This document shows, piece by piece, positions 27,531 through 44,925 of a DNA stretch of 44,925 bases. The translations under genes and the position numbers were made by a program. How positions within the stretch are numbered: the stretch's first letter is position 1; every line of letters starts with the position of its first letter. Below the pieces are notes generated by a model, which was not told where the DNA came from, searched no databases, and saw nothing but the letters and a program-made list of their open reading frames with translations. The stretch is from Magnetococcales bacterium WMHbinv6 (GTDB taxonomy: Bacteria; Pseudomonadota; Magnetococcia; Magnetococcales; Magnetaquicoccaceae): contig PDZV01000030.1 in the NCBI GenBank assembly GCA_002753135.1, positions 1 to 44,925 of the forward strand. The letters are read 5' to 3'.

Positions 27531-29105
27531 ATGGCAGGAAAGGGAAAGACCGTGTTTGATATCAAGGAATTGGTTCGTCGACTGAGGTTGGGACAAACAG
27601 AACGAGCCATTGGTCGGCAGATGGGGTTTCATCGCGTAACAGTCAAGAAATACAGACAGTTGGCAGAAAGTCACGGTTGGCTTGAGAAGGATACAGGCTT
27701 GCCAGAACCGGAAGTGATTGCCAGAGTTATGCACAAACTGAAACCTGCTACGACTATGGTACATGAGGTTTCCAGCGTGGAACCGTACAGGGTGTTGGCT
27801 GAAGCGCTCTTGCAGGATGGCGAGATGTCTGCGAGCGTTGTTTATCAACGACTTGCTGATAATGGCTATCTTGGCAGCTATTCCAGTGTGCGCCGTTTTA
27901 TAGCCAAATTGCGCGGCCCGACAATTCCGGAAGGATTTTGCCGGATTGAAGTGGCGCCTGGCAGCGAAGCGCAGGTTGATTTTGGCTATGTTGGCAAACT
28001 GTTCGATCCGATCAAGCAGATTGAACGTTCTGGTTGGGTGTTTGTGATGACGCTATCACACAGTCGCCACATGTTTGTGAAGATCGTTTTTGACCAATCA
28101 TCCTGGAGTTGGTTGCAATTGCACCGGGAGGCGTTTGAATTTTTCGGCGGCGTACCGGGAAAAGTTGTTCTGGACAATCTGAAAGCAGCGATTGTCAAGG
28201 CTGCGATTCATGATCCCCAGATACAAAGAAGCTACCGGGATCAGGCGGAATATTATGGTTTTATCGTGGATCCGAATCGTCCTCGCACCCCACGTCACAA
28301 GGGCAAGGTTGAACGCAGCGTTCGCTATATCAAGCAGAATTTCATGCCTGGCCGCCGATTTCGTGATATTGACGATGCCAACGAACAGTTGCAGCAGTGG
28401 AACAATGAAAAAGCGGGATGTCGGGTGCATGGTACAACCGGTTGGAAACCGCAGGAACAGTTTGCATCCGTTGAGCAATCGGCCTTGCTGCCCTTGCCAT
28501 CGACACGCTGGGAACCAAGTCTGTGGAAAGAGGTCAAACTGCAGTCGGATTGCTATCTGAATGTTGAGAAGTCGTTTTATTCTGCACCATTTCGTCTGAT
28601 TGACCAGTCGCTGATGGTGCAGGTAACCCCTGATTCTGTGCGCATCTTCCATGGTCTGGAATTGGTGGCAACGCACCCTCGGGCACAGGTGCCCAGGAGT
28701 CGGGTTGCCAATCAGGATCACTTTCCACCCCACAAGGTGGCGCTGCTCAAGGCCACCCCGCAATGGTGTCTCAAGAAAGCGGAAGAGATCGGCCCGGCCT
28801 GCCTGGAATGGATGCAGAGATATTTGTCAGACCCGGTGATGGAGAAGGTTCGTTCCGGGTTTATCGCCTTGAGTCTGGCTGAAAAATTTACTTCCCAGCG
28901 TTTGGAAATGGCATGCCGACGCGCCTTGGACTTTGACGAGATCGGTTTTGCGACTCTCAAGCGCATTCTGGAACGTGGCCTGGATCAAGAACCTTGGGCA
29001 AATCTCCTGCATCCGGCACCGCTTGCCGCAATCATTCCAATACCGACACCGCGTTATACCAGGGATGTGAGCCACTATTTTGCGGATCGCCAGGAGGTGT
29101 TGTGA
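27531..29105 (+). CDS. istA: IS21 transposase IstA
   Basis: A 524-residue DDE transposase. An N-terminal HTH (RRLRLGQTERAIGRQMGFH) is followed by the RNase H-like core with D150 (AQVDFGY), D215 (VVLDNLKAA) and E261 (KGKVERSVRYIKQN). The C-terminal region binds DNA. ATG is preceded by aggag. It works with the ATPase IstB, whose ATG overlaps its stop codon. Confidence 0.96.
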   Translation: MAGKGKTVFDIKELVRRLRLGQTERAIGRQMGFHRVTVKKYRQLAESHGWLEKDTGLPEPEVIARVMHKLKPATTMVHEVSSVEPYRVLAEALLQDGEMSASVVYQRLADNGYLGSYSSVRRFIAKLRGPTIPEGFCRIEVAPGSEAQVDFGYVGKLFDPIKQIERSGWVFVMTLSHSRHMFVKIVFDQSSWSWLQLHREAFEFFGGVPGKVVLDNLKAAIVKAAIHDPQIQRSYRDQAEYYGFIVDPNRPRTPRHKGKVERSVRYIKQNFMPGRRFRDIDDANEQLQQWNNEKAGCRVHGTTGWKPQEQFASVEQSALLPLPSTRWEPSLWKEVKLQSDCYLNVEKSFYSAPFRLIDQSLMVQVTPDSVRIFHGLELVATHPRAQVPRSRVANQDHFPPHKVALLKATPQWCLKKAEEIGPACLEWMQRYLSDPVMEKVRSGFIALSLAEKFTSQRLEMACRRALDFDEIGFATLKRILERGLDQEPWANLLHPAPLAAIIPIPTPRYTRDVSHYFADRQEVL

Positions 29106-29881
29106 TGATACAGCAGCATCACCTGGAACCTAAACTCAAACGTCTACGATTGTCCGGCATGCTGGAAACGTTGGAAGATCGGACCGTTCAGGCCGTTGAC
29201 AGCAAGATTTCCTATACGGATTTTCTGGAGCGTTTGCTGGAAGATGAAATCGAGAGACGTGAACAGAAACAGTTGGCGCTGCGCCTGAGAAGAGCGGGAT
29301 TTGATCCGAGCAAGACATTGGAAACCTTTGACTTCTCTTTCAATCCTGGCATAAACCGGCAGGCAATTCAGGAACTGTCCACGTGTGGTTTTGTAGTCCG
29401 CAAAGAAAACGTTTTGATTTATGGCCAGACGGGTGTTGGCAAGTCGCACTTGGCAGTTGCCCTTGGTCACTCAGCATGCCGGAAAGGCATGGATGTACTT
29501 TTTCTCAACGTTCACCAGATGCTGGCACATCTCAATGCGGGTCGTGCCGATGGTTCGTACCAGAAAAGGCTGGCAGCCTACTTGCGAACAGATCTGCTGG
29601 TAATGGACGATTTGGGACTGCGTCCCATATCAGCAGTCGGTGCTGAAGATTTGTACGAGGTGATCAGGGGACGCTACGAACAGGGTGCAATCGTAGTAAC
29701 CAGCAATCGAGCGCCGGAAGAGTGGTCTGTTTGTTTCTCAGACCCCCTGCTGGCAAATGCCGCCTTGGATCGGATCAACCACCATGCCCATCATGTGGAG
29801 ATTACCGGTTCCAGTTATCGGGCACATGGCAAGCGGAAGCAGGAATTGATTAAAATGGGTGGACAACGCAAGACGCAGTAA
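29105..29881 (+). CDS. istB: IS21 helper ATPase IstB
   Basis: A 258-residue AAA+ ATPase that assembles at the target and activates IstA. Walker A is GQTGVGKSHLA, Walker B is LLVMDDLGLRP and the sensor region is VVTSNRAPEEW. ATG 29105 overlaps the istA stop (TGATG), with aggaggt just upstream; a GTG three bases earlier is an alternative. Length is standard for the family. Confidence 0.95.
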   Translation: MIQQHHLEPKLKRLRLSGMLETLEDRTVQAVDSKISYTDFLERLLEDEIERREQKQLALRLRRAGFDPSKTLETFDFSFNPGINRQAIQELSTCGFVVRKENVLIYGQTGVGKSHLAVALGHSACRKGMDVLFLNVHQMLAHLNAGRADGSYQKRLAAYLRTDLLVMDDLGLRPISAVGAEDLYEVIRGRYEQGAIVVTSNRAPEEWSVCFSDPLLANAALDRINHHAHHVEITGSSYRAHGKRKQELIKMGGQRKTQ

Positions 29882-29940: not shown

Positions 29941-30621
29941 GTGGTACAGTATGGGCGGCTATTGACAGCAGCGGACTGTCCTGCATGCGGTAGTCGCTAC
30001 GTCCGCACCAGCAGCTTCGAGCCGTATCCGCCCTCATTCTCCTACCCTTCCATGGGCAGCAGCAGTGGCGGCAGTGGTAGTGTTGGCAGGTCTAGCAGCA
30101 GTTCAAAACCTCGATGGTCGAGAGCGAGTTCGTTCGTGTCGTACACGTTTGCCCAAATCCAGTCACTCACTCCAATCCGCCAAACCGTTGAGACGCGAGC
30201 AGCGGAGCAACCTGACCTTCGCGACGTCTTCCTGTGCCACGCGTGGGACGACCGGCAGGGGCCAGCCAAAGAACTGCACGATTTGCTCGTGGCGGCTGGG
30301 GTCAAAGTGTGGTTCAGTGAGAAGGACCTTGGCCTCGGCGTGCCGATGATGCGTGCTATCGACAAGGGCTTAGCGAATTCGCGAATTGGGCTTGTGTTGG
30401 TTACCCCCGCGCTGCTAGCCCGCCTCCCAATAGAGAGCGTCGCCGACAAAGAGCTTTCGGCCCTCCTTGCTGGCAACAAGCTCGTTCCCATCGTGCACAA
30501 CACGACGTATGAATCTCTGCGCAATGTCAGCCCGTTGCTCGCCTCTCGAACTGGCCTTGACACTGCGGAAGATTCAATGGCGATGGTCGCGACAAAGATC
30601 GCCGAACTGGTTGCTATCTAG
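29941..30621 (+). CDS. TIR-domain protein, 3' part reopened by IS end
   Basis: The original gene was cut by the IS21 element, but a GTG at 29941 within the right inverted repeat opens the same frame, giving a 226-residue product. Contents: zinc-ribbon remnant DCPACGSRY; a Ser/Gly-rich linker; then from about residue 95 a TIR domain (LRDVFLCHAWDDR, VKVWFSEKDLGLGVPMMRAIDKGL, IGLVLVTPALL). VADKELSALL aligns by eye with the helix bearing the catalytic glutamate of TIR NADases. Stand-alone bacterial TIR proteins often deplete NAD or make signals in phage defence; that is inference here. No ribosome binding site is obvious for the new start, so it may be silent. Confidence 0.75.
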   Translation: MVQYGRLLTAADCPACGSRYVRTSSFEPYPPSFSYPSMGSSSGGSGSVGRSSSSSKPRWSRASSFVSYTFAQIQSLTPIRQTVETRAAEQPDLRDVFLCHAWDDRQGPAKELHDLLVAAGVKVWFSEKDLGLGVPMMRAIDKGLANSRIGLVLVTPALLARLPIESVADKELSALLAGNKLVPIVHNTTYESLRNVSPLLASRTGLDTAEDSMAMVATKIAELVAI

Positions 30622-30850: not shown

Positions 30851-31876
30851 TTGGAAACACCAATACAACAAATTGACATTGACAAATTTCTAGGAAAATT
30901 TCCTGTGTATTTGGCCACCGCTTCATCAGTTATATATTTTTTAGGATATATAGTTATTACAAGTTATTTGTCGGCAAATGGCATCTATGAGCAACCATTG
31001 CTTGGCACAAAATATTTAACTACAGGGGTTCTTGCCATAATAATGCTTCTTTATTGTTATTTTTTTGTCATACGTAAATTTGCCAACAGATTAATACAAA
31101 GCAAACAAACATACAATAACAAAGGAAAATTATTTTCTTTATATATCTTTTTATTGCATGCAACTGAATTATTATTCTTATGCTATTCTGCTTCTTGTTT
31201 TATACTGATGCTTGTTGGTCATCATGAATATACAATCATAGTGGCGTCACTAATCAGCGTAAAATTAATGCTAATGCCTGATCCAAAATATACACTGACT
31301 AATAGATTTTCTCACATGCACAATTTTGTTTATATTGTTGTTTCAATATGGATTATTATTATTTGCACTGTCTATGGAATAAAATATAAGCCATTATTTT
31401 CGTTAGCCTCTGTATTTTTTACTATAACTCTTGTTTGGGTGGTGGTTGCTAATTCTGACACATGGAAAGCGAATGCTGATAAATTATATAATATATTCTT
31501 TATATTTATCTATATTATGTCAGGAATGATAGCGTTCGGCACAACTGTCTACGAATATATCAATCCGCAGTTTGGTGGCTCTTTACCGGCACAAGTTTCT
31601 GTAATTCTTGCTCAAGATGCCGACGAGAAAATTATACAATTATTTAAAAGAAACGAAGGCAATCTGTTTCTTGTGTTAGAGACTGAAACGCGAACTATTC
31701 TCAAGATAGGAGATTCAGAAGAATATATCGGTTACTATCAGATTGACAAGAAATTAATCAAAGGATTATTATTTCACCCTACCAAAAATTCACTTAATCA
31801 AGTAAAATCTTCATCAGGCTCTACTGGGCAATGGCAAAATGATTTTATTAATATAGTTAAATTTAATTTTCAATAA
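30851..31876 (+). CDS. AT-rich multi-pass membrane protein, unknown function
   Basis: A 341-residue protein with a TTG start at 30851, preceded by agagga. About seven hydrophobic segments are seen: around residues 20-38, 58-75, 95-125, 128-137, 155-172, 182-200 and 213-230. A ~110-residue soluble C-terminal domain follows (LPAQVSVILAQDADEKIIQLF...). The sequence is far richer in A and T than all neighbouring genes, so it is recently acquired. It resembles, from memory, unnamed membrane proteins of genomic islands that begin with a GYIVI-SYLS segment. It lies between two repeats of the same family. A sensor or effector role in a defence cassette is possible but unproven. Confidence 0.75.
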   Translation: METPIQQIDIDKFLGKFPVYLATASSVIYFLGYIVITSYLSANGIYEQPLLGTKYLTTGVLAIIMLLYCYFFVIRKFANRLIQSKQTYNNKGKLFSLYIFLLHATELLFLCYSASCFILMLVGHHEYTIIVASLISVKLMLMPDPKYTLTNRFSHMHNFVYIVVSIWIIIICTVYGIKYKPLFSLASVFFTITLVWVVVANSDTWKANADKLYNIFFIFIYIMSGMIAFGTTVYEYINPQFGGSLPAQVSVILAQDADEKIIQLFKRNEGNLFLVLETETRTILKIGDSEEYIGYYQIDKKLIKGLLFHPTKNSLNQVKSSSGSTGQWQNDFINIVKFNFQ

Positions 31877-32566: not shown

Positions 32567-33910
32567 TCAATGGTTGGCCAGTTCATCCACCAGGACACCC
32601 AGCCCTTGTACCCGCAGTTGCAGATCAATACCGTTGACATGGACCTGCACCCTTTCCACCAACAGTTTCAGCAACCGGTTCTGTTCCAGCGGAAAAAGTT
32701 GCTCCCAAACCGGGTCCAGGCGGGCCAGCAAGGCGATGATCTCCCGTTCGGAGACCTCCGGGTCGGCCTTGTGCACCTGATGGATGCTCCTGGCGATCAC
32801 CTCCGGTGCTTTGAGCAAGCGATGCACCCGCTCCAACACCAACCGTTCCAGTTCAAGGGCCGGTACGCTGGGTAGCGGGCACTGGTCGTGGCTGGTGCGG
32901 GCGGCGTTCATGCAGAGATAGTAGCGGTACTGGACCTGCCCCCCTCTGCGCGTATGGCTCGGCCTCATCGCCATCCCGCAATGGCCGCAGCGCACCAGTC
33001 CTTTCAACGGAAACGGCGTCTGCCCACGCGGCAGGGTGGAGTTGGGTCGGTTGTGTTCGGCGATCAAGCCATGCACCCGATCCCACAGCTCCCGGCTCAC
33101 GATGGGCTGGTGCCGGCCAGGATAGGTGACATCCTGATAAACCACCTCGCCGAGGTAGACCTGGTTTTTGAGAATGTGGTAGAGGGAGGCCTTTTGGATC
33201 GGCTTGCCATCAAAAAAGACCCCCTCGGCAGTGGTCCAGGATTTGTTGCGAATGCCTGATGCCCGCAAATCCTTGATCACCTGGGTGGGTGAACCGCATT
33301 CGGCAAAGCGGCGGAAAATGTGCCGCACCTGCTCGGCCTCCCGTTCGTTGACCACCAACTCCCGGTTGCGCACGTCATACCCCAACGGTGGCCGGCCACC
33401 CATCCAGATCCCTTTCTTGCGCGAGGCGGCATATTTATCCCGGATCCGGTCGGCAGTCGTCTCCCTCTCAAATTGCGCAAAAGACAGCAATATGTTGAGG
33501 GTCAAGCGCCCCATGGAGGTCGTCGTCGCAAAAGACTGCGTGACGCTGACAAAGGTCACATGGTGTTGATCAAGCACTTCGATCAGTTTGGAAAAATCCA
33601 ACAGGGAGCGGGTCAGTCGATCCAGCTTGTAGGTGACGATGCAATCGATTTTGCCCGCCTTGATCTCCACTAACAGGCGTTGCAAAGCGGGTCGGTTGAG
33701 GGTACCGCCGGAATAACCGGGATCGTCAAACCGATCGGCCACCGGCAACCACCCTTCCGATTTTTGACTATTAATGTAAGCCAGACAGGCTTCGCGCTGG
33801 GCCTCCAGGCTGTTGAACTCCTGATCCAGCCCCTCCTCCGTCGATTTCCGGGTATAGACCGCGCAGCGCACCTTTGGCGTCACGGCAGTCGGCGTTTTTT
33901 TGCGGTTCAT
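32567..33910 (-). CDS. Serine recombinase (resolvase/recombinase family)
   Basis: A 447-residue recombinase. The N-terminal catalytic domain carries the nucleophile S23 in YTRKSTEEG, then SLEAQREAC, DPGYSGGTLNRPALQRLL, YKLDRLTRS and FERETTADRIRDKYAASRKKGIWMGG. The recombinase domain has GYDVRNRELVVNEREAEQVRHIF and a zinc ribbon with RCGHCG and two later cysteines. It catalyses DNA exchange through 5'-phosphoserine linkage. Its start overlaps the DUF2924 gene by 4 bases. It is longer than small resolvases and shorter than phage large serine integrases. Confidence 0.94.
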   Translation of the reverse strand: MNRKKTPTAVTPKVRCAVYTRKSTEEGLDQEFNSLEAQREACLAYINSQKSEGWLPVADRFDDPGYSGGTLNRPALQRLLVEIKAGKIDCIVTYKLDRLTRSLLDFSKLIEVLDQHHVTFVSVTQSFATTTSMGRLTLNILLSFAQFERETTADRIRDKYAASRKKGIWMGGRPPLGYDVRNRELVVNEREAEQVRHIFRRFAECGSPTQVIKDLRASGIRNKSWTTAEGVFFDGKPIQKASLYHILKNQVYLGEVVYQDVTYPGRHQPIVSRELWDRVHGLIAEHNRPNSTLPRGQTPFPLKGLVRCGHCGMAMRPSHTRRGGQVQYRYYLCMNAARTSHDQCPLPSVPALELERLVLERVHRLLKAPEVIARSIHQVHKADPEVSEREIIALLARLDPVWEQLFPLEQNRLLKLLVERVQVHVNGIDLQLRVQGLGVLVDELANH

Positions 33911-34338
33911 GCCTTGCCTCCTTTCCGCAGACCAAAAAACAGCGGTCCGGACCAGTGGGTGCCAGTAATGGCCTTGGCCACCGACGACAGGCTGGCATAT
34001 TTGCGCCCCTGGTACTCAAAACCGGCATCGAGAACGGTGACAACGTGTTCCACCCCCTGCCAAGTGCGAATCATCCGCGCACCCGGTGCAGGCGTGACAG
34101 CCTCCGCTTTGGTGGGTGCCTTGCCCGAAACCGGCCCCTGTTTCAGGCCATCCAGGAGGGTGACCGCTGCCCCCGTCAAACCACCAAAGGCCAATTCCTG
34201 GATCCGATAGGCCAACCGGCGCACCAGATAATCCTTCCCCGCCTGCGGCGGGTCGCTTGCAAACTGTTTCCGCCACATCTGGTTCAAATCCTGGATACTC
34301 TTCCCAGGCAGGGCGGTAATTTCAGAGAGTGTACTCAT
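33907..34338 (-). CDS. DUF2924 family protein
   Basis: A 143-residue protein. Family landmarks: LTEM-like start (MSTLSEITALPGKSIQDLNQMWRK), LVRRLAYRIQELAFGGL, then VEHVVTVLDAGFEYQGRKYASLSSVAKAITGTHWSGPLFFGL. DUF2924 proteins are usually encoded just upstream of serine recombinases and probably are DNA-binding partners. It overlaps the genes on both sides by 4 bases, which indicates a single transcript. Confidence 0.9.
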   Translation of the reverse strand: MSTLSEITALPGKSIQDLNQMWRKQFASDPPQAGKDYLVRRLAYRIQELAFGGLTGAAVTLLDGLKQGPVSGKAPTKAEAVTPAPGARMIRTWQGVEHVVTVLDAGFEYQGRKYASLSSVAKAITGTHWSGPLFFGLRKGGKA

Positions 34339-34823: not shown

Positions 34824-35504
34824 ATGGAGAGCAAAACGACCATGGACACCCCGAACAAGCGAAGGGGGCGACCAGCCACGGAAGGGCCGACGCCGACCCA
34901 GTTGCGCATTCTCGCGGTGATCCGGGAGTTCATTGCCACGCATGGCGGCATCTCGCCGACACTCACCGAGGTGGGTGAAGCGCTTGATATCAAGGCCCCC
35001 AGCGTACATGAGCAGGTTGCCAGCATGATTCGGAAAGGGTTGGTTCGTCGCGCTCCCGGAAAAGCACGTACCCTGACCCCGGTGGAAGAGAATTTCCAGG
35101 TTCCCGGTTTGGTTTCTGTACCCGTATTCGGGGTTGTCCCCGCCGGGGTGCCTGTTTTTGCGGTGGAAAACCGCATTGGCGAAATTTGGGTGGAAGAGAG
35201 TGTGGTCCGGGGTTCCTGTTTTGCGTTGCGGGTCACGGGTGACAGCATGGTGGAGGCGAATATCAAGGATGGAGATTTCGTGATCGTCCGGCGTCAGCCC
35301 ATTGCGGAGAATGGTGAAATTGTTGTGGCCTTGCTGGGAGATGAAGCAACGGTCAAACGATTGTTCATATCAGATACGCTTCTCGAACTGAGACCGGCCA
35401 ATCCGGCCTACCGACCCATTCGGATCAGGCAGGATGACGAACTCAGAATTTTGGGGAAGGTTTTGGCTGTGCGCAGCACATCTCTACAGGAGGACGACCA
35501 ATGA
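34824..35504 (+). CDS. LexA/S24-family repressor (prophage-type)
   Basis: A 226-residue LexA-like protein. A basic N-terminus (NKRRGRPATEG) is followed by the winged HTH (PTPTQLRILAVIREFIATHGGISPTLTEVGEAL), then the S24 latent protease. The autocleavage site is A107-G108 (VVPAGVP), the catalytic serine S141 (TGDSM) and lysine K178 (EATVKRL). All needed residues are present. ATG 34824 or 34842 may start it. Its stop overlaps the next gene (ATGA), so it heads a three-gene operon with two unknown genes. Whether it is the host's LexA or an element-borne copy is unclear; the context favours an element-borne one. Confidence 0.88.
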   Translation: MESKTTMDTPNKRRGRPATEGPTPTQLRILAVIREFIATHGGISPTLTEVGEALDIKAPSVHEQVASMIRKGLVRRAPGKARTLTPVEENFQVPGLVSVPVFGVVPAGVPVFAVENRIGEIWVEESVVRGSCFALRVTGDSMVEANIKDGDFVIVRRQPIAENGEIVVALLGDEATVKRLFISDTLLELRPANPAYRPIRIRQDDELRILGKVLAVRSTSLQEDDQ

Positions 35505-36676
35505 CAACAATGGCACGGGTGATACGCAACACGCCGATACCGAGGTTGGTGGACTATTTCAAATGGCGCGGACTGGATATCGAGGGCCAGTTGCCGGGGG
35601 AGGTCAGCCAGCGAGGCTGGACGGCTACCACACTGCTCAAGACATTGGGTACAATGGCAGAAAGCAGTCAGGCGATGGTGCTTGCCGATTTTGAGCGCAT
35701 CCATGAGATGACCGACGAGGCGGGACAGTGGGCCATGTTGCATGTGGCGGCGAACCGGAAACCTTTGCAGGAGCTTGGCAGCCACTATGAGCGGGCCTTG
35801 TGGCTGTTCATGGATGATCCGGTGTTGTTTCGGCAGGCCGAAGAGGCCCGTTTTGCCGACACCCGTCGTCAGGGACGCATGTGGTCTGGTTTTGTTGGTC
35901 CTCGTGGCGTGGCTGTCAGCCAGGATCCGGAAGATCATCGGCGGTTTGAGGAAAAAGTGCGTCTGATTTTCGACACCCGCAATGCCCGCCTGGATCTTTT
36001 CGAGCGGTTGAGGGTTGAGGCCAAAGAGCAGGTGTCGCGGGTGCTCCAGGCGGTAATCTACCGGGAGGGGTTGCCCGACACGCAGTTGGCGTTCAATGAA
36101 ACCGGAGAGTTGGAACTGCATTCCCATCGTCCGGTTTATGAGGTGTCGATCGTCTACGAACCCGGCAGTGGCATCATCGAGGTGGTTGCCAATGGGACGG
36201 AGAACCGGGCACGGCTCGCCCGCTTGTTTGCCGAGATCATTTTGCGTCAGGGGATTTTGGGGATGCGGATTCCGCTGCGCCAGTATGACCTCTCCCCGTT
36301 GCTCCAGCCATACGACTTTCCCAGTGATCCTGATGACGGCATTGATGCGGTCAAAGTGCTGCGGTTGCAATTGCGTCGCAGGGAGGCAGAGCAGGCCCAT
36401 CTTGCGCTTCTGGCCAAGTGGGACAAGCGGGAGACGGTTTATGACCATGCGCGTCAATCGCTCATTTTTGCTGACGATATGCCGAATGAGTATGCCGTGG
36501 ATGAGGTATTGTTTTCCGTTCGTCTGCGACCGACACGGAAATCATCCTGGCGCAGGCGCACCATCAACATATCCATTGCCCTTCCGAACGGTTGCAACCT
36601 GAAGAGCAAGACCGAGCAGGAGCGCATGATCTGCGACAAATATCTCCCCCGTTGGGGGCTGGTAAAGGAGGTGTGA
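35501..36676 (+). CDS. Unknown protein, second gene of LexA-headed operon
   Basis: A 391-residue soluble protein that I cannot assign. It is preceded by aggagg and overlaps the LexA-like stop by 4 bases. Features: an N-terminal RNTPIPRLVDYFKWRGL, a helical centre (residues 60-210) including FADTRRQGRMWSGFVGPRGV, a beta-rich part (TQLAFNETGELELHSHRPVYEVSIVYEPGS) and a basic C-terminus (RKSSWRRRTINISIALPNGCNL). There is no signal peptide, membrane segment or P-loop. Control by a self-cleaving repressor implies induction by DNA damage. Confidence 0.7.
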   Translation: MTTMARVIRNTPIPRLVDYFKWRGLDIEGQLPGEVSQRGWTATTLLKTLGTMAESSQAMVLADFERIHEMTDEAGQWAMLHVAANRKPLQELGSHYERALWLFMDDPVLFRQAEEARFADTRRQGRMWSGFVGPRGVAVSQDPEDHRRFEEKVRLIFDTRNARLDLFERLRVEAKEQVSRVLQAVIYREGLPDTQLAFNETGELELHSHRPVYEVSIVYEPGSGIIEVVANGTENRARLARLFAEIILRQGILGMRIPLRQYDLSPLLQPYDFPSDPDDGIDAVKVLRLQLRRREAEQAHLALLAKWDKRETVYDHARQSLIFADDMPNEYAVDEVLFSVRLRPTRKSSWRRRTINISIALPNGCNLKSKTEQERMICDKYLPRWGLVKEV

Positions 36677-36678
36677 TC

Positions 36679-37620
36679 GTGGCGGATATGGTGATGCCAC
36701 ACAAGGCCTTCCAACTGGCCGTGGATATTTTCAATTTCACGGAACCAAAGATGCCCGGCTGCAACATCGCAGATTTTCACCCGAATGAGGGAAAAACGCT
36801 CATCGACTGCGGATTTCTGACGGAAGGTGAAATTCGCACGGTGGTACCCGACCGGCATAACGAGGGTGCCGGATTGGTGGAGCCCGTGTGGAACGAAGAG
36901 ACCCGAACCTACCAGTATCTCAGCTTTGATGACGGCTATTTCGTGGATGTCCCCGAGGAGGATTTGAAGACCTACAATCTGGATGTGGATCGTTTCGTGC
37001 GCTACATCCAGGAAATTGCCGGGTTGCGTGGCGAACGGCGTCCGATTCTCAAAAATTTTCTCTGGAATATTGGTTCGTTGAAGCTTGGTTCCAGAATAGC
37101 GACTGTTTTTCTAGCCAGACGGATGGCCGCGCACCAGAGTTTCGATAACATCTATGACGCGTTGAAGCGCCTCAGTGGCAAAACGCCGGGAGTAGTGCTG
37201 GCCAGGACCATTCCCACCGGGCGGCATGTCGAGTTGCCCCACGGATTCCGCATGCTCAGCCTGGCAGACACCATGATCGTAGAAGGTGGACGTTATCGCC
37301 TGGACATGGACTTGCTGGGAAGCATTTTGACTGGTGTGAAGGGACAGATGGTGGATGACCTGTCCCCGGTCTATGCCAGTCCCGATTACGGTTTGGTCCG
37401 GGTCAACGGGCGTGAATTTATCTTTACTGGCGCAAAGCACAAAGAAGCGATTGGCTTTCTGGTAAGAGCATGGGAGCGAGGAGAGCGGAAATATCGCACC
37501 CAGGATCTTCTGGAAAATGTCGAATCAACCGCTGACGCCCTCAGCCAGTTTTTTCGCGGACATATGGGTTGGCGGGACTTGATCGGCTATGGAGGAGGTT
37601 TTTGCTGGATTAAGGTATGA
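36679..37620 (+). CDS. Unknown protein with winged-helix-like C-terminus
   Basis: A 313-residue protein. GTG 36679 is chosen because aaaggagg ends 7 bases before it; ATG 36688 is the alternative. The middle has charged helices (LKTYNLDVDRFVRYIQEIAGL). The C-terminal ~70 residues (REFIFTGAKHKEAIGFLVRAWERGERKYRTQDLLENV) resemble the winged-helix seen at the end of several phage and island proteins. It begins 2 bases after the preceding stop codon and is followed by a hairpin terminator, so it is the last gene of the LexA-headed operon. No enzymatic motif is recognised. Confidence 0.7.
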   Translation: MADMVMPHKAFQLAVDIFNFTEPKMPGCNIADFHPNEGKTLIDCGFLTEGEIRTVVPDRHNEGAGLVEPVWNEETRTYQYLSFDDGYFVDVPEEDLKTYNLDVDRFVRYIQEIAGLRGERRPILKNFLWNIGSLKLGSRIATVFLARRMAAHQSFDNIYDALKRLSGKTPGVVLARTIPTGRHVELPHGFRMLSLADTMIVEGGRYRLDMDLLGSILTGVKGQMVDDLSPVYASPDYGLVRVNGREFIFTGAKHKEAIGFLVRAWERGERKYRTQDLLENVESTADALSQFFRGHMGWRDLIGYGGGFCWIKV

Positions 37621-37633
37621 CTCATCTTATAAT

Positions 37634-37674
37634 GGGGTGAACCGTCCGAGTTGGGGCAGTTCACCCTCTTTCTT
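37634..37674 (+). terminator. Intrinsic terminator of LexA-headed operon
   Basis: gggtgaac (37635-37642) pairs with gttcaccc (37659-37666) around a 16-base loop, followed by the T-rich tctttctt. It starts 14 bases after the last gene of the operon. Confidence 0.65.
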
Positions 37675-37751
37675 CCCATTGCTCGTCGATTGCCCGGTCG
37701 TCCCGTTCTCTTTCCCCACAGGGGGGCATCTTGCCAGCATTGAGGACTCCC

Positions 37752-37949
37752 CTCCTCAGTTCCTCCTCAGTTGCCCCCATTGATGAACCAGGATCCTCTC
37801 TGCGGCTGCATGTTTCAGTTAACATATTGAATAATAATATATTTTACTGTTTTCTGGCCGGTTTTGACTGAATGCCGTGCCCGCAAAAAAAATGCAAAAA
37901 TTTTTCCTCCTCAGTCATCTCCTCAGTTTCTCCTCAGCTTCTCCTCAGT
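37752..37949. repeat. CTCCTCAGT iterons around an AT-rich stretch
   Basis: Six copies of ctcctcagt (one ends in c) lie in the 385-base intergenic region: 37752, 37763, 37907, 37919, 37930 and 37941. Spacing within the two groups is 11, then 12, 11 and 11 bases, i.e. one DNA turn. Between the groups is an AT-rich segment (about 37812-37856, with aataataatatatttt). This fits a replication origin or a multi-site operator in front of the replication operon. The rest of the interval (37675-37750, 37950-38005) shows nothing else clear. Confidence 0.7.
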
Positions 37950-38005
37950 AACCCCCTGCTACCATCCTCCCCATGTTCAACACACAACCGGGAGGAAAGC
38001 ACGGC

Positions 38006-38209
38006 ATGGAAACCCGCCACATCAACCCGTTTCAGCTCGCACGCCGGTGGGGGATCAACCCCCGGACGCTGCAAAACTGGCGCTGCAAGAGCAAAGGGCC
38101 AGCCTACTTGAAGATAGGCGGCCACATCATGTACCGCGAAAATGACATTGAGCAGTACGAATCCGAACACCATTTTCATGCGAACAATACATCCAAACAG
38201 CACGGGTAA
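38006..38209 (+). CDS. Excisionase/AlpA-like helix-turn-helix protein
   Basis: A 67-residue protein. ATG 38006 has ggagg about 10 bases before it and is preferred over ATG 37973. The HTH is seen in INPFQLARRWGINPRTLQNWR, then the wing KGPAYLKIGGHIMYRENDIEQYE, typical of the excisionase/MerR-like fold (helix_turn_helix_17). It is the first gene after the iteron region and probably regulates the operon or element excision. Confidence 0.8.
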   Translation: METRHINPFQLARRWGINPRTLQNWRCKSKGPAYLKIGGHIMYRENDIEQYESEHHFHANNTSKQHG

Positions 38210-38247: not shown

Positions 38248-38307
38248 ATGCAGCAAAAAACAGTGAACACCTTTCCTGTCTGGCCCATCGGCCACGGAGG
38301 TGCATGA
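38248..38307 (+). CDS. Possible 19-residue coupling/leader peptide
   Basis: A short ORF, MQQKTVNTFPVWPIGHGGA, with a strong aaggag ribosome binding site 7 bases before its ATG. Its TGA overlaps the ATG of the downstream ATPase gene (38307). The spacing suggests translational coupling, though it could simply be a chance ORF or the remnant of a longer gene. Confidence 0.4.
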   Translation: MQQKTVNTFPVWPIGHGGA

Positions 38308-39074
38308 TGGCCATTTCACTCGCCTCATTACAACGTCGGCAGGTCAATCTGCCACCACGCATTCTGGTTTATGGCGTGGCCGGGATCGGCAAGACCACCC
38401 TGGCGGCCTGCTCTCCCGCACCCGTTTTTCTGCCCACCGAGGATGGTTTGGGCAAGCTGGATGTGGTGGCTTTTCCGCAGGCCAACTCCTATGCCGATGT
38501 GGTGGGAGCCATGGATGCCCTGCTCAACGAGCAGCACGATTTTGAATCCTTTGTCATCGACAGCCTCGATTGGCTGGAACCCCTGATCTGGGCCGAGGTC
38601 TGTGTGCGCCAGAAGGTGAACGCCATGGAGGATCTCACCTACGGCAAGGGCTATGTGTACGCCCTGGAGTTGTGGCGTGACTACATCGGTCGGTTAAACC
38701 GTCTCCGCTCCGAAAAGGGCATGCTGATCATTCAGATTGCTCATGCGGTGATCCGCCGTTTCGACTCGCCCGAACACGAGCCCTACGACCGCTACGACGT
38801 CAAGTTGCACCAAAAAGCTGCTGCCCTGCTGGTGGAGCACAGCGACTGTGTCCTGTTCTGCAACTACCGGATTTCGACGACCAAGAGCGATGTCGGCTTC
38901 AACAAAAAGGTGACACGGGCTGTGGGCGACTGCTCCCGGTTGCTGTTCACCAGCGAGCGTCCGGCCTTCCTGGCCAAAAACCGTTACAACCTGCCCGGCG
39001 AGCTGCCCATGGAGTGGCCCACACTCGAAGCGCATCTCGCCGGCACCATTCAAACAGACCACGTCAACGCATAG
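38307..39074 (+). CDS. Phage AAA_24 ATPase (Sak4-like RecA-fold protein)
   Basis: A 255-residue P-loop ATPase. ATG 38307 has ggagg 6 bases upstream. Walker A is GVAGIGKTTLA (residues 23-33), Walker B is SFVIDSLDWLEPLIW, and later LIIQIAHAVIRRF is the sensor strand. It belongs to the phage nucleotide-binding group (PF13479) that includes single-strand-annealing Sak4 proteins. Sak4 proteins pair complementary strands during phage recombination and replication, usually with an SSB-like partner. The next gene is a DUF669 protein, a typical partner. Confidence 0.85.
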   Translation: MAISLASLQRRQVNLPPRILVYGVAGIGKTTLAACSPAPVFLPTEDGLGKLDVVAFPQANSYADVVGAMDALLNEQHDFESFVIDSLDWLEPLIWAEVCVRQKVNAMEDLTYGKGYVYALELWRDYIGRLNRLRSEKGMLIIQIAHAVIRRFDSPEHEPYDRYDVKLHQKAAALLVEHSDCVLFCNYRISTTKSDVGFNKKVTRAVGDCSRLLFTSERPAFLAKNRYNLPGELPMEWPTLEAHLAGTIQTDHVNA

Positions 39075-39084
39075 GAGAACAATC

Positions 39085-39810
39085 ATGGCACAACTTGGCG
39101 CAACTTTCGATGCCTCCCAGGTGGACCCCTCGCAACCCTTTGAGACTTTGCCCCCCGGCGACTACCGGGTGCAGATCGTCGCTTCAGAGATGAGGCCCAC
39201 CAAAGCGGGTACTGGTCAGTATCTCTGGATGGAAATGGAGATTCTGGACGGTCCGTTTTCCGGGAAACGGGTGTTTGACCGGTTGAATCTGATCAACCCC
39301 AACCAGCAGGCCGCAGATATTGCCCAGCGGACCCTCTCTGCCATCTGTCACGCCGTTGGACGGATGCAGGTGAGCGATTCGGAGGAACTGCATTTTAAGC
39401 CGCTGCTGGTGAAGGTGGTGGTAGACAAGGAGGGTTACAACCAAACGAAGGGTTACAAACCCGTCGCCAATGCAATACCCGCTGCCCGCCCGGCGTTTCA
39501 GCCGCAGCAGGCGCGCTACCAACAATCGCCCCAGCAGCAACCGGCACAGTATCAACAGCCTGTTCAGCAGCAACCCGTTCAACAACAACCGGCGCAGTAC
39601 CAACAGCCGGTTCAACAGCAACCAGTTCAGCAACCGGCGCAGTACCAACAGCCGGTTCAACAGCAACCAGTTCAGCAGCAACCAGTTCAGCAACCGGCGC
39701 AGTACCAACAGCCGGTTCAGCAGCAACCGACCCAATACCAACAGCCGGTTCAGTCCACGCAGCCCGCTCCCGCCCCGGGTGGAGTTGGTCCGTGGAAAAG
39801 AACGGTATAA
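39085..39810 (+). CDS. DUF669 protein with Gln/Pro-rich repeat tail
   Basis: A 241-residue protein. Residues 1-130 match DUF669 (ATFDASQVDPSQPFETLPPGDYRVQI, GQYLWMEMEILDGPFSGKRVFDRLNL, LLVKVVVDKEGYNQTKGY), a family with single-strand-DNA-binding protein-like context in phages. Residues ~135-230 are repeats of QPAQYQQPVQQQP. The C-terminus is GVGPWKRTV, with no acidic SSB-type tip. It lies 10 bases after the Sak4-like gene with aggag upstream. It probably coats or organises single-stranded DNA; this is inference. Confidence 0.8.
   Translation: MAQLGATFDASQVDPSQPFETLPPGDYRVQIVASEMRPTKAGTGQYLWMEMEILDGPFSGKRVFDRLNLINPNQQAADIAQRTLSAICHAVGRMQVSDSEELHFKPLLVKVVVDKEGYNQTKGYKPVANAIPAARPAFQPQQARYQQSPQQQPAQYQQPVQQQPVQQQPAQYQQPVQQQPVQQPAQYQQPVQQQPVQQQPVQQPAQYQQPVQQQPTQYQQPVQSTQPAPAPGGVGPWKRTV
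39535..39755 (+). repeat. In-frame tandem repeats encoding a Gln/Pro-rich tail
   Basis: About four copies of a unit of 39-48 bases encoding QPAQYQQPVQQQP, plus partial copies. The number of units is probably variable by slippage or recombination because lengths stay multiples of three. Confidence 0.85.
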
Positions 39811-39899
39811 CAGCGCAGCGGGCGTTCGCCGTCACCACAGCCGCCAAGCACCGGTGACGGCGACGCCCTGTTCACGAGACAAGAAAGGAGGAATTGCCC

Positions 39900-40292
39900 A
39901 TGAACAGCAGCATGATGACGCAACAGGAGGGGCGTGGCAAGATCAACCTGCCCGCAAGCCGCGAGGCCAGCCGTGCCCGTACCATCCAGTTGCAGTCCGA
40001 GATTACCGCCATCCGCGACCAGATTGCGGCGAACGATTTGGCCAGACAGGCTAACGGTGAGCGCATGGATGCCCAATGGTACCACCGCGCCCGCACGGCG
40101 ATCCGCTTCAAGCGTGAGGAACTGGCCCACCTTCAGGAGCACTACCGCACGCTGCCCGGTAGCGCGAACGAACGCAAAGAGAAGCTCAAGGAGTGCATTA
40201 TCGCTGTTGTGCGGACCGACTACAGCGACGAGCAGTGGCGCGAGGTAATGGACGAGGCCCATCGCCTGCTGTTGAGCAAGGCAGGTGTGTGA
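39900..40292 (+). CDS. Small helical protein of the replication operon
   Basis: A 130-residue protein I do not recognise; ATG 39900 follows aaaggagg by 8 bases. It is largely helical: ASREASRARTIQLQSEITAIRDQIA and YHRARTAIRFKREELAHLQEHYRTL look like coiled coils. Its C-terminal part is RTDYSDEQWREVMDEAHRLL. Its TGA overlaps the start of the nuclease gene. It may be a structural partner of the nuclease or the ATPase. Confidence 0.7.
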   Translation: MNSSMMTQQEGRGKINLPASREASRARTIQLQSEITAIRDQIAANDLARQANGERMDAQWYHRARTAIRFKREELAHLQEHYRTLPGSANERKEKLKECIIAVVRTDYSDEQWREVMDEAHRLLLSKAGV

Positions 40293-41230
40293 TGGCACTC
40301 CTTCCGAAACCCCACTCTCCCACGGTGGAGGCGATCCTTACCGCCTACGAGGCGGACGCCGGGAGCGGATTTCGTCCCCATCTGGGTGCATCCTTGATCG
40401 GCAAGGAGTGCGAACGCTCCTTGTGGCTTGATTTCCGCTGGACCGTCCGTGCCAGTTTCGGTGGCCGCATGCTGCGACTCTTCGAAACCGGCCAACTGGA
40501 GGAAACCCGCCTCATCCGCAACCTGCGCCGTATCGGTGTCACCGTCCTGGATGTGGATCCCCACACCGGTCGGCAATGGCGGGTGGAATCGTGCAACGGC
40601 CATTTCGGCGGCTCCCTGGATGCCGCCGCCGTGGGGGTGCCCGAAGCTCCCAAAACCTGGCATGTCTGCGAATTCAAGACCCACAATGCTGCCTCCTTTG
40701 CCGAACTGCGCAAGGAGGGGGTGAAAAAGTCTAAACCGCAGCACTATGCCCAGATGCAAATCTACATGCACCTGACTGGCATGAGCAGAGCCTTGTATCT
40801 GGCAGTCAACAAGGACACGGACCACCTTTACAGCGAACGTCTCCATGCCGACGAGGCCGATGGGTTGAGGCTGATCGCCAAAGCCGAACGGATTATTCGT
40901 GCCGACCGGCCACCGGCAAGGATCAGCTCCGACCCTTCCTGGTACCAGTGCCGCATGTGCCATCACTACCCCCTTTGTCACGAGGATTTCCCCGCGCAGC
41001 GCAATTGCCGCACCTGCCTGCACGCCACCCCGGCGGAAATTGGTCTGTGGCTTTGTGCGCCAGCCGAACGGCTGATGGCAATCGACGCCCAGAAAGAAGG
41101 GTGTAGCAGACATCTCTTCATTCCCGATCTGGTGGACGGGGAACAGATCGATGCTGACCCTGCTGCAGGCTGGGTGGAATACCGCTTGCCGGACGGCTCT
41201 CTCTGGCGGGATGGAGGTGCCGCATGCTGA
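40292..41230 (+). CDS. PD-(D/E)XK nuclease of Cas4/RecB type with Fe-S cysteines
   Basis: A 312-residue nuclease. The catalytic core has D110 (GGSLDAA), E127 and K129 (WHVCEFKTH) and Q156 (HYAQMQIYMHL). A single early cysteine C40 (IGKECERSLW) plus C220, C223 and C229 (CRMCHHYPLC) reproduce the four [4Fe-4S] ligands of Cas4 and AddB. An extra pair C239 and C242 follows. It is expected to resect DNA ends (5'-3') during recombination. It starts within the stop of the upstream gene and its end overlaps the helicase start by 7 bases. Confidence 0.85.
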   Translation: MALLPKPHSPTVEAILTAYEADAGSGFRPHLGASLIGKECERSLWLDFRWTVRASFGGRMLRLFETGQLEETRLIRNLRRIGVTVLDVDPHTGRQWRVESCNGHFGGSLDAAAVGVPEAPKTWHVCEFKTHNAASFAELRKEGVKKSKPQHYAQMQIYMHLTGMSRALYLAVNKDTDHLYSERLHADEADGLRLIAKAERIIRADRPPARISSDPSWYQCRMCHHYPLCHEDFPAQRNCRTCLHATPAEIGLWLCAPAERLMAIDAQKEGCSRHLFIPDLVDGEQIDADPAAGWVEYRLPDGSLWRDGGAAC

Positions 41231-42819
41231 CCCTGCGACCTTACCAGCGAGAATCGATCAACGCCATCTACCACTATTTCGAGAGCAACGCCGGCAACCC
41301 CCTGGTGATCATCCCAACCGCCGGGGGCAAATCGCTGGTGATGGCCACCTTCATCCAGGAGGCAATCCAGTTCTATCCGGATACGCGCATCCTGGTGGTA
41401 ACCCACGTCCGCGAGTTGATCAGCCAGAATTTTTCCGAGTTGATCAACCTCTGGCCGGAGGCTCCGGCAGGCATCTACAGTGCCGGGTTGAACCAGCGGG
41501 ATACCGAGGCCCAGGTGCTCTTTTGTGGCATTCAGTCGGTTCACAAACGGGCGTATGACATTCAGCGGGCCGATCTGGTGATGGTCGATGAGGCTCATCT
41601 TATCCCGCGCAAGTCGGACACCATGTACCAGCGTTTCCTGGGCGATCTGCAACATATCAACCCCCATCTCAAAATCATTGGCCTGACTGCCACGCCCTAC
41701 CGGCTGGACAGCGGACTGCTGCATGAGGGTGAAAACGCCTTGTTCGATGATATCGCCTTTGAGGTGTCGGTGCGAGATCTGGTGGATCAGGGATTTCTCT
41801 CTCCTTTGATCAGCAAACGGACCGATACCCAGTTGGATGTCTCCGGAGTTGGTTCACGGGGCGGCGAATTCATCCCCGGCCAACTGGAAGCGGCGGTGGA
41901 CCTGGATCCGATCACCCAGGCGGCGGTGGAGGAAATTCTGCGCCTTGGCTGCGACCGTCGCTCCTGGTTGTTGTTTTGTTCAGGCGTTTCCCATGCCAGT
42001 CATGTGCGGGATGCGGTTCTGGAACGAGGTATCTCCTGTGCCTGCATCTTTGGCGACACCCCCAAGGGCGAACGGGATCAGATCGTGGCCGCTTTCAAAC
42101 GGGGGGAGATTCGGGCTCTGGCCTCCATGGGGGTGTTGACCACCGGTTTCAACGCGCCGGCAGTGGATCTCATTGCCATGCTGCGTCCCACCAAGTCTAC
42201 CGGCCTGTACGTCCAGATTGCTGGACGAGGCATGCGTCTGGCCCCTGGCAAAACAGACTGCCTCGTGCTGGATTTTGCCGGCAATGTCCAGCGACACGGC
42301 CCCATCGACAAGGTCAAACCCAAAAAACCGGGTGAAGGGGATGGAGAGGCTCCCAGCAAGGTTTGTCCAGAGTGCCATACCATCAACCATGCAGCGGTAC
42401 GGCACTGTATCCAGTGCCACCATGAATTTCCCCCGGTGGTGAGCGAGCAGTTGGAAGCAACGGCCACCACCCAGGTGATTCTCACCGCCAGCAGGGCGGA
42501 ATGGGTAAAAGTATACGATATCGCCTACCAAAGGCACCAGAAGGAGGGCAAAAAACCCTCTTTGCGGGTGGAATACCTCTGTGGCTGCAACTGGCATCGG
42601 GAGTGGGTCTGCTTCGAGCATACCGGCTACCCGCGCCAAAAGGCGGCTGCCTGGTGGGCGCGACACGCGCCGATGGGCCTGCGTCTGCCGGATACGGTCT
42701 CCGAGGCCCTGACTCTGGTCAACCAACTGCGCATTCCGGACGAAATTGCCGTCCGCGCCAATGACCGTTTCGTAGAGGTGGTGGGCGCACGTTTCGGTGA
42801 GGAGATAAACCATGATTGA
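41224..42819 (+). CDS. DEAH-box (SF2) helicase with zinc-ribbon
   Basis: A 531-residue SF2 helicase. Motifs: RPYQRESI (Q-like), Walker A PTAGGKS (31-37), DEAH (122-125), LTATPYRLD (motif III), TTGFNAPAVDLI (motif V) and QIAGRGMR (motif VI). After the helicase core comes a zinc ribbon CPECHTINHAAVRHCIQCHHEF and a C-terminal domain (EYLCGCNWHREWVCFEHTGYPRQKAAAWW). It belongs to the UvsW/SSL2-like family of phage helicases that process replication and recombination intermediates. Its partner is the Cas4-like nuclease just upstream. Confidence 0.9.
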   Translation: MLTLRPYQRESINAIYHYFESNAGNPLVIIPTAGGKSLVMATFIQEAIQFYPDTRILVVTHVRELISQNFSELINLWPEAPAGIYSAGLNQRDTEAQVLFCGIQSVHKRAYDIQRADLVMVDEAHLIPRKSDTMYQRFLGDLQHINPHLKIIGLTATPYRLDSGLLHEGENALFDDIAFEVSVRDLVDQGFLSPLISKRTDTQLDVSGVGSRGGEFIPGQLEAAVDLDPITQAAVEEILRLGCDRRSWLLFCSGVSHASHVRDAVLERGISCACIFGDTPKGERDQIVAAFKRGEIRALASMGVLTTGFNAPAVDLIAMLRPTKSTGLYVQIAGRGMRLAPGKTDCLVLDFAGNVQRHGPIDKVKPKKPGEGDGEAPSKVCPECHTINHAAVRHCIQCHHEFPPVVSEQLEATATTQVILTASRAEWVKVYDIAYQRHQKEGKKPSLRVEYLCGCNWHREWVCFEHTGYPRQKAAAWWARHAPMGLRLPDTVSEALTLVNQLRIPDEIAVRANDRFVEVVGARFGEEINHD

Positions 42820-43018
42820 TCCGACCGAACGTGAACTGGCGGCCATCACTGCCGCAAGTCCTGTGGCCGGGGAGTACATCGAGAGCCTGGGAAAAACCGA
42901 TTTGCTCCATTTTTCGGTGCAGGAGTTTCTCACCCTGATCCAGGTGATCGTGTCGGCCTATCTGGAGGCCAAGGCCGGATTTGACATCAACAATACCTGG
43001 GATGACGTCCCGTTTTGA
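42812..43018 (+). CDS. Small protein with SSB-like C-terminal tip
   Basis: A 68-residue protein that overlaps the helicase stop by 8 bases. It resembles the DUF6511-type small phage/island proteins (ERELAAITAASPVAGEYIESLGKTDLLHFSVQEFLTLI). It ends in NNTWDDVPF, close to the DDDIPF tip by which bacterial SSB recruits RecQ, PriA, ExoI and other partners. The family number is from memory. The tip suggests a role in docking host replication proteins. Confidence 0.65.
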   Translation: MIDPTERELAAITAASPVAGEYIESLGKTDLLHFSVQEFLTLIQVIVSAYLEAKAGFDINNTWDDVPF

Positions 43019-43029
43019 AGGAGCCATTC

Positions 43030-44925
43030 ATGGGCGAAAATTTTATGACCCTGTACGGTGACCGGTTGCAGACCGGCGGCTTTCCATTCCTGCCCATCGT
43101 GCCCGGCGAAAAATATCCTGGCCGCTTCGAGCGTGGCAAATGGCTGCCCTACAAAGGCTGGACCAGACATGCCAGTCGCACCACCACGGTGCATGAGTTG
43201 GCCATCTGGAAACAGTGGCCGGATGCGGGGATCGGCATCCCGGGCGGTATGGTAGCCGGGGTGGACATCGATATTGCCGACGATGCCGACCTCGCTGAGC
43301 GTCTCCAATCCCTGGCTTTCGAACTGCTGGGTGAGACCCCGGCGGTACGGATCGGCCAAGCCCCCAAGCGGATGCTGGTCTACCGCACGGCGGTTCCGTT
43401 CAAGGGGATCAAGGCGCATCCCCTGGAGGTACTCTGCCAGGGGCAGCAGTTTGTTTTGTACGCCATCCATCCCGGCACCGGCAGACCTTACGAATGGCCG
43501 GTCTCTTCCCTGGCCGATCTGACCTTGGCGGATTTGCCGGTCATCACTGAGGCACAGGCGCACGCCTTCATTGAGCAGGGATTGGCACTCCTGCCGGAGG
43601 GGATGCGTCCGGTACGACTGGAGCACAATCATCCGGCAATGCCGACGAGCCTACCAGTTGTGCATCCTGCCGCCCACACGCAGGAGGGGACTCCCGAAGC
43701 GATCCAGGATGCCCTGCGCCATATCATCAACGCTGATCTGCCCTACGATGAGTGGGTGCGTGTCGGCATGGCGATCAAGGGTGCGCTGGGTGATGCGGGT
43801 GTGAGCCTGTTCGCCGACTGGTCTGCCTCGTCCGCCAAAAACGTCTCTGACACCACGGCCCGTGCCTGGGCCAGCTTTCGTCCCACGGTTATCGGTGCCG
43901 GAACCATCTACCATCTGGCGCAAAAGTTTGGCTGGAAGCCGGATGCCGCCATTACCCTGAACCCGGCCAACAAGCATTCCGGCCCGCATCCGGCAGAGGA
44001 ACTGTTGCGTAGGATGCCGCACGTCACGACTCATCTCCCGGCAGAAGAGGCACCGCCGTTTCTGGAAGGGCCGGAGTGGAACATTACCGATGTCGATGGC
44101 GTGCTGGGCTGGCTGTTGGAGTACATGGTGACCACCGCCACCCGTCCTCAACCCATCCTCGCCGTGGGCAATACCCTGTGTGCTTTGGGTGCCTTGATGG
44201 GGCGGCGCTACCGTACCGAGACGGATATCCGCAGCAACCTTTACGTGGTGGGTATCGCCGACAGCGGTTCCGGTAAAAACCACAGCCGCGAAGTGATCAC
44301 CGATCTGCTGTTCCGGGCCGGGTTGAAAAAATTTCTGGGTGGCAACCGCATCGCGTCGGGTGCGGGTCTGTTGCGGGCAATCCACGAACATCCGGCCATC
44401 CTTTTCCAGCAGGATGAGTTTGGCATGTTCCTGCAGGCCGCTGCCGACCGCAAGCGCAGTCCGAAGCACATCACCGACATTCTGGACTTGATGACGGAGT
44501 TGTACTCCTCGTCTGCCACCGTATTTCTGGGACCTGAATACGCCGTGCCGGACAAAAAAGGCCGTCAGGATATCAACCAGCCCTGCCTGTGTCTCTACGG
44601 CACCACCACGCCCACCCTGTTCTGGTCGGCGTTGAAGAGCGCCAACGTCGCCGACGGTTCGCTGGCCCGCTTCCTGATTCTCAAGACTCAGGACGATTAT
44701 CCAGAGGCAAGTGGCACGGATGTGTTGGGCGAACCGCCAGAGGATCTGGTGGCTGCACTGGCAGCCATCGCCCGAAACGGCAGCGCCGGCGATGGCAATC
44801 TGGCAAACGCAACCACAGGCCCGGAGACTGCCGTGCATCCGCAGGTGGTGCCAATGTTGCCGGAAGCACGGGAGCGGTTCGCCGATCTGAACCGGCAGGT
44901 TACCCATCTTCTGCGCCGGACGAAA
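43030..44925 (+). CDS. PrimPol primase-helicase (3' end outside window)
   Basis: At least 632 residues, still open at the right edge, starting ATG 43030 with aaggag 6 bases upstream. Residues ~1-170 are a bifunctional primase/polymerase domain with the catalytic GVDIDIAD (D79, D81). Around residues 220-290 a PriCT_2-like domain is seen (DLPYDEWVRVGMAIKGALGD). The helicase domain starts near residue 345, with Walker A SGSGKN (~412-417) and ILFQQDEFG (~457). It would synthesise primers and unwind the element's DNA. It overlaps no other gene and is presumably the major replicase of this prophage-like region. Confidence 0.88.
   Translation, partial: MGENFMTLYGDRLQTGGFPFLPIVPGEKYPGRFERGKWLPYKGWTRHASRTTTVHELAIWKQWPDAGIGIPGGMVAGVDIDIADDADLAERLQSLAFELLGETPAVRIGQAPKRMLVYRTAVPFKGIKAHPLEVLCQGQQFVLYAIHPGTGRPYEWPVSSLADLTLADLPVITEAQAHAFIEQGLALLPEGMRPVRLEHNHPAMPTSLPVVHPAAHTQEGTPEAIQDALRHIINADLPYDEWVRVGMAIKGALGDAGVSLFADWSASSAKNVSDTTARAWASFRPTVIGAGTIYHLAQKFGWKPDAAITLNPANKHSGPHPAEELLRRMPHVTTHLPAEEAPPFLEGPEWNITDVDGVLGWLLEYMVTTATRPQPILAVGNTLCALGALMGRRYRTETDIRSNLYVVGIADSGSGKNHSREVITDLLFRAGLKKFLGGNRIASGAGLLRAIHEHPAILFQQDEFGMFLQAAADRKRSPKHITDILDLMTELYSSSATVFLGPEYAVPDKKGRQDINQPCLCLYGTTTPTLFWSALKSANVADGSLARFLILKTQDDYPEASGTDVLGEPPEDLVAALAAIARNGSAGDGNLANATTGPETAVHPQVVPMLPEARERFADLNRQVTHLLRRTK

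Follow-up and report, generated by a model that had tools for sequence, protein, structure and literature searches.

Six short direct repeats stand directly in front of the replication genes of a prophage in Magnetococcales bacterium WMHbinv6, and their arrangement raises two questions: (i) which protein reads the repeats and (ii) what does that protein do once it is bound. We addressed both in the window, by which we mean the whole 44,925-nt stretch of contig PDZV01000030.1 analysed here, and in related loci from other genomes.

A phased array in front of a prophage replication operon

The sequence-only reading had described six phased copies of CTCCTCAGT, two to the left and four to the right of an AT-rich core, and they are indeed present, one of them with a mismatch. 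All six lie on the + strand. The left pair (37752–37771) consists of copies at 37752–37760 and 37763–37771, and the right array (37907–37949) of copies at 37907–37915, 37919–37927, 37930–37938 and 37941–37949, where the third reads CTCCTCAGC and its single mismatch is terminal. The start-to-start steps are 11 bp within the left pair, 144 bp across the gap and 12, 11 and 11 bp within the right array. The exact 9-mer is unique to the array in the whole window, and paired copies 2–3 nt apart have no second occurrence in the 3.84-Mb genome. Mutual identity of the four right copies is 48/48, the maximum self-similarity score, whereas no more than 37 was reached when the stretch was resampled 60 times with a first-order Markov model. 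The gap between the two groups includes an AT-rich segment with A/T tracts that adjoins the right array (37800–37906; GC 28–30% at 37800–37874). Rfam gave zero matches around the locus.

The genes on either side are those of a prophage. From its integrase end, the order is a serine integrase (32567–33910, − strand, phrog_95), a LexA/S24-like protein that is likely the prophage repressor (34824–35504, +), a phrog_37634 protein without an assigned function (35501–36676, +), an unannotated 310-aa protein (36688–37620, +), the iterons and then the small excisionase-like HTH_17 protein (38006–38209, +), the first gene of the operon. The remainder of the operon (38307–44925, +) encodes a Sak4-like AAA_24 ATPase, an SSB-like DUF669 protein, a small ORF, a Cas4-type exonuclease, a DEAD helicase and a PrimPol-PriCT2-DUF3987 protein. 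The gene for the 310-aa protein, which we refer to as the regulator, lies 5′ of the iterons together with a hairpin and T-rich run (37635–37666, +), an inverted repeat that is likely its terminator. The repeats do precede a replication operon, as had been noted, but that operon seemed to end at the PrimPol because the window stops there; it runs beyond the window, and the contig continues through more genes to an M15 peptidase. Nine PrimPol codons just beyond the window end are masked in the record.

Several neighbouring features may be recorded here. The SSB-like DUF669 protein (39085–39810) has a long PVQQQPAQYQQ repeat tail, and a DUF2924 protein (33907–34338, −) adjoins the serine integrase. 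At the integrase end, an IS21-like transposase and ATP-binding helper pair was identified by eye (27531–29881). A TIR-domain protein (Pfam TIR_2, 29941–30621) lies beside an uncharacterised, apparently membrane protein (30851–31876), possibly as anti-phage defence cargo.

Array and −10 element keep a fixed geometry in relatives

Homologues of the HTH_17 gene were taken from related genomes and 80 genome contigs, spanning Magnetococcales and Alphaproteobacteria. In raw counts that ignore kinship, 50 of these loci have both regulator and array, 26 have neither, five have the regulator only and two the array only. The array is thus absent from 26 loci lacking the regulator, and for the two array-bearing loci no regulator was found within the stretch searched. 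The phrog_37634 protein is the usual upstream partner of the regulator in these relatives. The array keeps its place before the HTH_17 gene and its geometry, either 12-11-11 or, where the third copy is degenerate, 12-23; L186, L187 and G021 form one group with 11-11-11 spacing. The repeat sequence itself varies and includes CTCCTCAG, CTCCTACC, TTCCTCAC, TTCCTCCC, TGCCTAAC, TGCCTCCC, CAACTACC and others. Absence of binding by the element's proteins and of conservation in related elements had been named in advance as grounds for discarding that reading. Conservation was found, in a form that had not been foreseen: the geometry is conserved and the sequence co-varies with the regulator.

Downstream of the fourth right copy (copy 4) lies an extended −10 element, TGC-TACCAT (37957–37965, +), 11 nt beyond the copy-4 8-mer, or 8 nt beyond its 11-bp repeat unit, with its hexamer at 37960–37965. 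The register of each array was set from the repeats alone, and the −10 was not used in the choice. Past copy 4, exactly two columns are invariant in 34 non-redundant loci, and these are the second-position A and final T of a sigma70-type nAnnnT hexamer whose first base falls exactly 11 nt past the copy-4 8-mer (34/34 for both). The Magnetococcales elements are mostly extended (TGnTAnnnT), and many relatives have weak −10s such as CAGTCT and GATGGT. There is no −35 hexamer, and copies 3 and 4 occupy that region. Since these promoters have no −35 and many have weak −10s, they should need help, and the four right copies are most likely, on this comparative evidence, a promoter operator rather than an origin.

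The left copies and the AT-rich segment are less constant. Several Magnetococcales relatives have from two to many left copies, so that the number is variable; L191, L197 and the alphaproteobacterial loci showed none. An AT-rich region beside the iterons is likewise present in several Magnetococcales loci and missing from the alphaproteobacterial ones. We propose an accessory role for the left copies.

Close relatives of two homologous regulators occur on contigs classed as viral in IMG/VR. Viral-contig scans with the L209 and L252 regulators as queries returned 17 loci, and those with the HTH and window regulator returned zero relatives. Array and −10 are arranged as in the genome loci in 15 of the 17, but several duplicate the genome set and this agreement does not amount to 15 independent cases; the exceptions are L281, which is off the fixed spacing, and L273, where the array is lost. 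A viral-contig scan for TCCTCAGT pairs was set aside, since most of its hits were in-frame coding repeats spaced by multiples of 3 and the others were unrelated arrays. A premature stop lies just upstream of the recognition helix of the regulator in L229, L269 and L273, the first two of which retain the array.

Some related loci differ more. In L200, L205, L226, L256 and L257, a related winged-helix tail is found with ATCCCC repeats that do not have the 12-11-11 type of geometry. These five loci, with L195, L221 and L223, encode shorter regulators of about 230–250 aa with similar starts (..YFTLEEVEERW.. / ..HYSLIELAERW..) and two types of C-terminal domain, one accompanied by the ATCCCC repeats and the other by CCCGAAACC-like repeats, a second set of modular tips and repeats. 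At another group of alphaproteobacterial loci, a QueC-like protein is encoded upstream of the HTH_17 gene (Pfam QueC, L253:3743–5602; also L255, L258, L259 and L245). These proteins end in a winged-helix-like tail (..ERSGYRLNP) and GTCACA repeats are intergenic, possibly representing another regulator/operator type.

The upstream protein has a predicted winged-helix C-terminus

The 310-aa protein matched no Pfam, NCBIfam or PHROG family. Its 25 family members show no meaningful Pfam match, and neither BTAD, Trans_reg_C nor Response_reg was matched at E ≤ 1. Searches of the PDB by sequence gave chance matches only, phages and plasmids yielded nothing in tblastn with the regulator, nor phages with the phrog_37634 protein, and Foldseek against viral models gave nothing significant.

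An AlphaFold model built on a 25-sequence alignment has a mean pLDDT of 87. Residues 226–310 have the strand-helix order of OmpR/PhoB DNA-binding domains, and nearly all of their top structural matches belong to that family, at Z-scores of 5 to 6.7 (under 8). The alignments with the VanR, CovR, NsrR, YycF and PhoB domains are moderate (Z 5.3–6.7, rmsd 3.1–3.7 Å), and the best Foldseek E-value for the winged helix is 0.016. For the N-terminal domain (1–216), only weak and scattered fold matches were found (FokI, ACC and Can2; Z about 5). The C-terminus of the regulator is accordingly predicted to be an OmpR/PhoB-like winged helix, a fold compatible with tandem occupation of direct repeats that are spaced by one helical turn.

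Recognition helix and iterons change together

Iteron distance tracks the distance between predicted recognition helices when N-terminal divergence is controlled (partial Mantel r = 0.36, p = 0.0004), and the reverse test, N-terminus against iterons with the helix controlled, gives r = 0.02 and p = 0.42. The association is evident between helix position 6 and iteron base 7, where Gln accompanies A in 5/5 cases and Lys accompanies C in 13/13; the L198 lineage has A at base 7 but Arg, not Gln, in the helix. On the N-terminal tree this iteron base changes four times. Three independent pairs are informative, a number too small for significance, and in all of them the helix changes with the iteron in the predicted direction (p = 0.25).

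Two loci from different genomes, L189 and L190, provide a view of how such changes may arise. Their upstream DNA is about 96% identical for 3.5 kb, up to a point 34 codons before the regulator stop, and 96% identity resumes just past copy 4. The block in between, from regulator tip to copy-4 end, has been replaced, and the iterons change with it from CTCCTACC to CTCCTCAG. In the record, the reading frame of the L190 regulator is broken in the N-terminal part and open in the C-terminal part. The L185/L186 and window/G021 comparisons show breakpoints of this kind too. In window coordinates, the block replaced between relatives corresponds to 37513–37949 (+) and comprises the last ~34–35 regulator codons, with the predicted recognition helix and wing, and the intergenic DNA up to and including copy 4. 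It seems that the DNA-reading tip of the regulator and the strip where it would dock pass between related phages as a single cassette.

Identity of the reader and function of the array

The proteins named earlier as candidate binders, the HTH_17, LexA-like and PrimPol proteins, are all DNA-binding or encoded near the site, and the upstream protein could in principle only hitch-hike with the repeats that one of them reads. None co-varies with iteron sequence. HTH_17 is rejected since the L189 and L190 proteins are identical over the 63 residues compared and the iterons differ. The LexA-like protein is 67% identical to that of L185, which has the same iterons, and 67–69% identical to those of different-iteron relatives (69% for L186). 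A window-type PrimPol module (G018, 84% identical) sits behind other iterons, which argues against PrimPol or another replicase, and we consider a reader among these proteins very improbable. Co-variation, natural cassette replacement and these exclusions together make the upstream protein at 36688–37620, which the sequence-only reading had left unnamed, the most likely reader of the iterons. Such a protein, or one from the operon, could act as an initiator that melts the AT-rich segment of a replication origin. The repeats flank that segment before replication genes, left copies and spacer recur in several Magnetococcales relatives, and the putative sites lie beside the gene for their reader, as is often the case at origins. 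Most loci, however, have neither left copies nor AT-rich core and keep the right array at its fixed distance from the −10, to which copy 4 is locked to the base. Repeat type and replication module are also uncoupled: L186 and L187, in one genome, have common iterons before unrelated modules (AAA_24/DEAD and D5 primase, respectively), and the G018 module shows the converse. An origin with an AT-rich core is therefore disfavoured, and we regard this part of the earlier proposal as unlikely; what stands of it is a phased, protein-binding type of array before a replication operon.

The regulator might instead be a repressor of the replication operon, its bound repeats occluding the −35/−10 region in the lysogen. 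The repeats lie over the −35 region, the regulator is encoded in one block with the LexA-like repressor, and a repressor would be expected to co-vary and swap with its sites just as an activator would. Against this are the missing −35 and the many weak −10s, features of promoters that should need assistance, and a repeat-to-−10 distance that is exact across sequence types, which is the activator signature of SARP and PhoB boxes (PMC10936776). With these three features favouring activation, we think repression improbable.

A model for activation, and comparison with known systems

The reading that we favour, with a probability of roughly 70%, is that the right array serves as operator in an activated promoter of class-II type, and that the regulator, a SARP/PhoB-like activator, switches on the prophage replication operon and has a swappable specificity cassette. 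The regulator would bind the four direct repeats in tandem through its C-terminal winged helix, with each ~11-bp helical turn occupied by one protomer, and would substitute for the missing −35 by recruiting RNA polymerase to the −10 at 37960–37965. The HTH_17-Sak4-SSB-exonuclease-helicase-PrimPol operon would then be transcribed, with induction probably following loss of the LexA-like repressor. The recognition helix would set the iteron sequence, and recombination of C-terminal tip and operator as one cassette would give related phages separate specificities.

Two groups of regulators are useful for comparison. SARP boxes, such as the afs box bound by AfsR of Streptomyces, are 11-bp direct repeats with 8 contacted bp that overlap the −35 of promoters with a poor −10; the last repeat ends 8 bp from the −10, and the protein binds with an OmpR-like winged helix (PMC10936776). 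If the unit here is likewise 11 bp, with 8 contacted and 3 uncontacted, the final one of the array also ends 8 bp from the −10. The array differs from a SARP box in having four repeats, and the predicted winged helix is C-terminal, unlike the SARP order of an N-terminal OmpR-like domain followed by a BTA domain. The host elements differ as well, being proteobacterial prophages in which the operator sequence diversifies and is swapped. In the OmpR/PhoB family (PhoB on the pho box; PhoP), proteins bind in tandem to 7-bp motifs separated by 4-bp spacers, in rows of up to four, and PhoP of Mycobacterium tuberculosis binds 3–4 repeats in this way (PMC4832192). The predicted C-terminal fold moderately resembles that of these response regulators, but a receiver domain is not detected by sequence, a Trans_reg_C match is absent and the paired repeats here are found at a single genomic target.

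Exchange of a binding protein together with its sites has a precedent in lambdoid phages, where immunity and O/ori swaps of this kind give phage specificity groups. The regulator tip and its putative sites likewise seem to be exchanged jointly. Unlike the lambdoid swaps, the breakpoint here lies inside a gene, immediately upstream of the predicted recognition helix, and a regulator tip and a putative promoter operator make up the unit.

We suggest, tentatively and as a possibility that we rate somewhat below even, that this prophage family controls replication via an undescribed activator with a hot-swappable cassette, in which recombination inside the gene, before the recognition helix, swaps tip and operator and thereby creates activator-based specificity groups between co-resident or superinfecting phages. 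If so, activator specificity groups would be the counterpart of repressor immunity groups. Natural pairs, almost identical except for a joint change of helix and operator, offer a ready test of a protein-DNA recognition code for winged helices of the OmpR/PhoB type and of the way in which phages diversify regulatory specificity while keeping function. The regulator, whose family is missing from Pfam, NCBIfam and PHROGs, is a probable master switch for prophage replication in two proteobacterial lineages.
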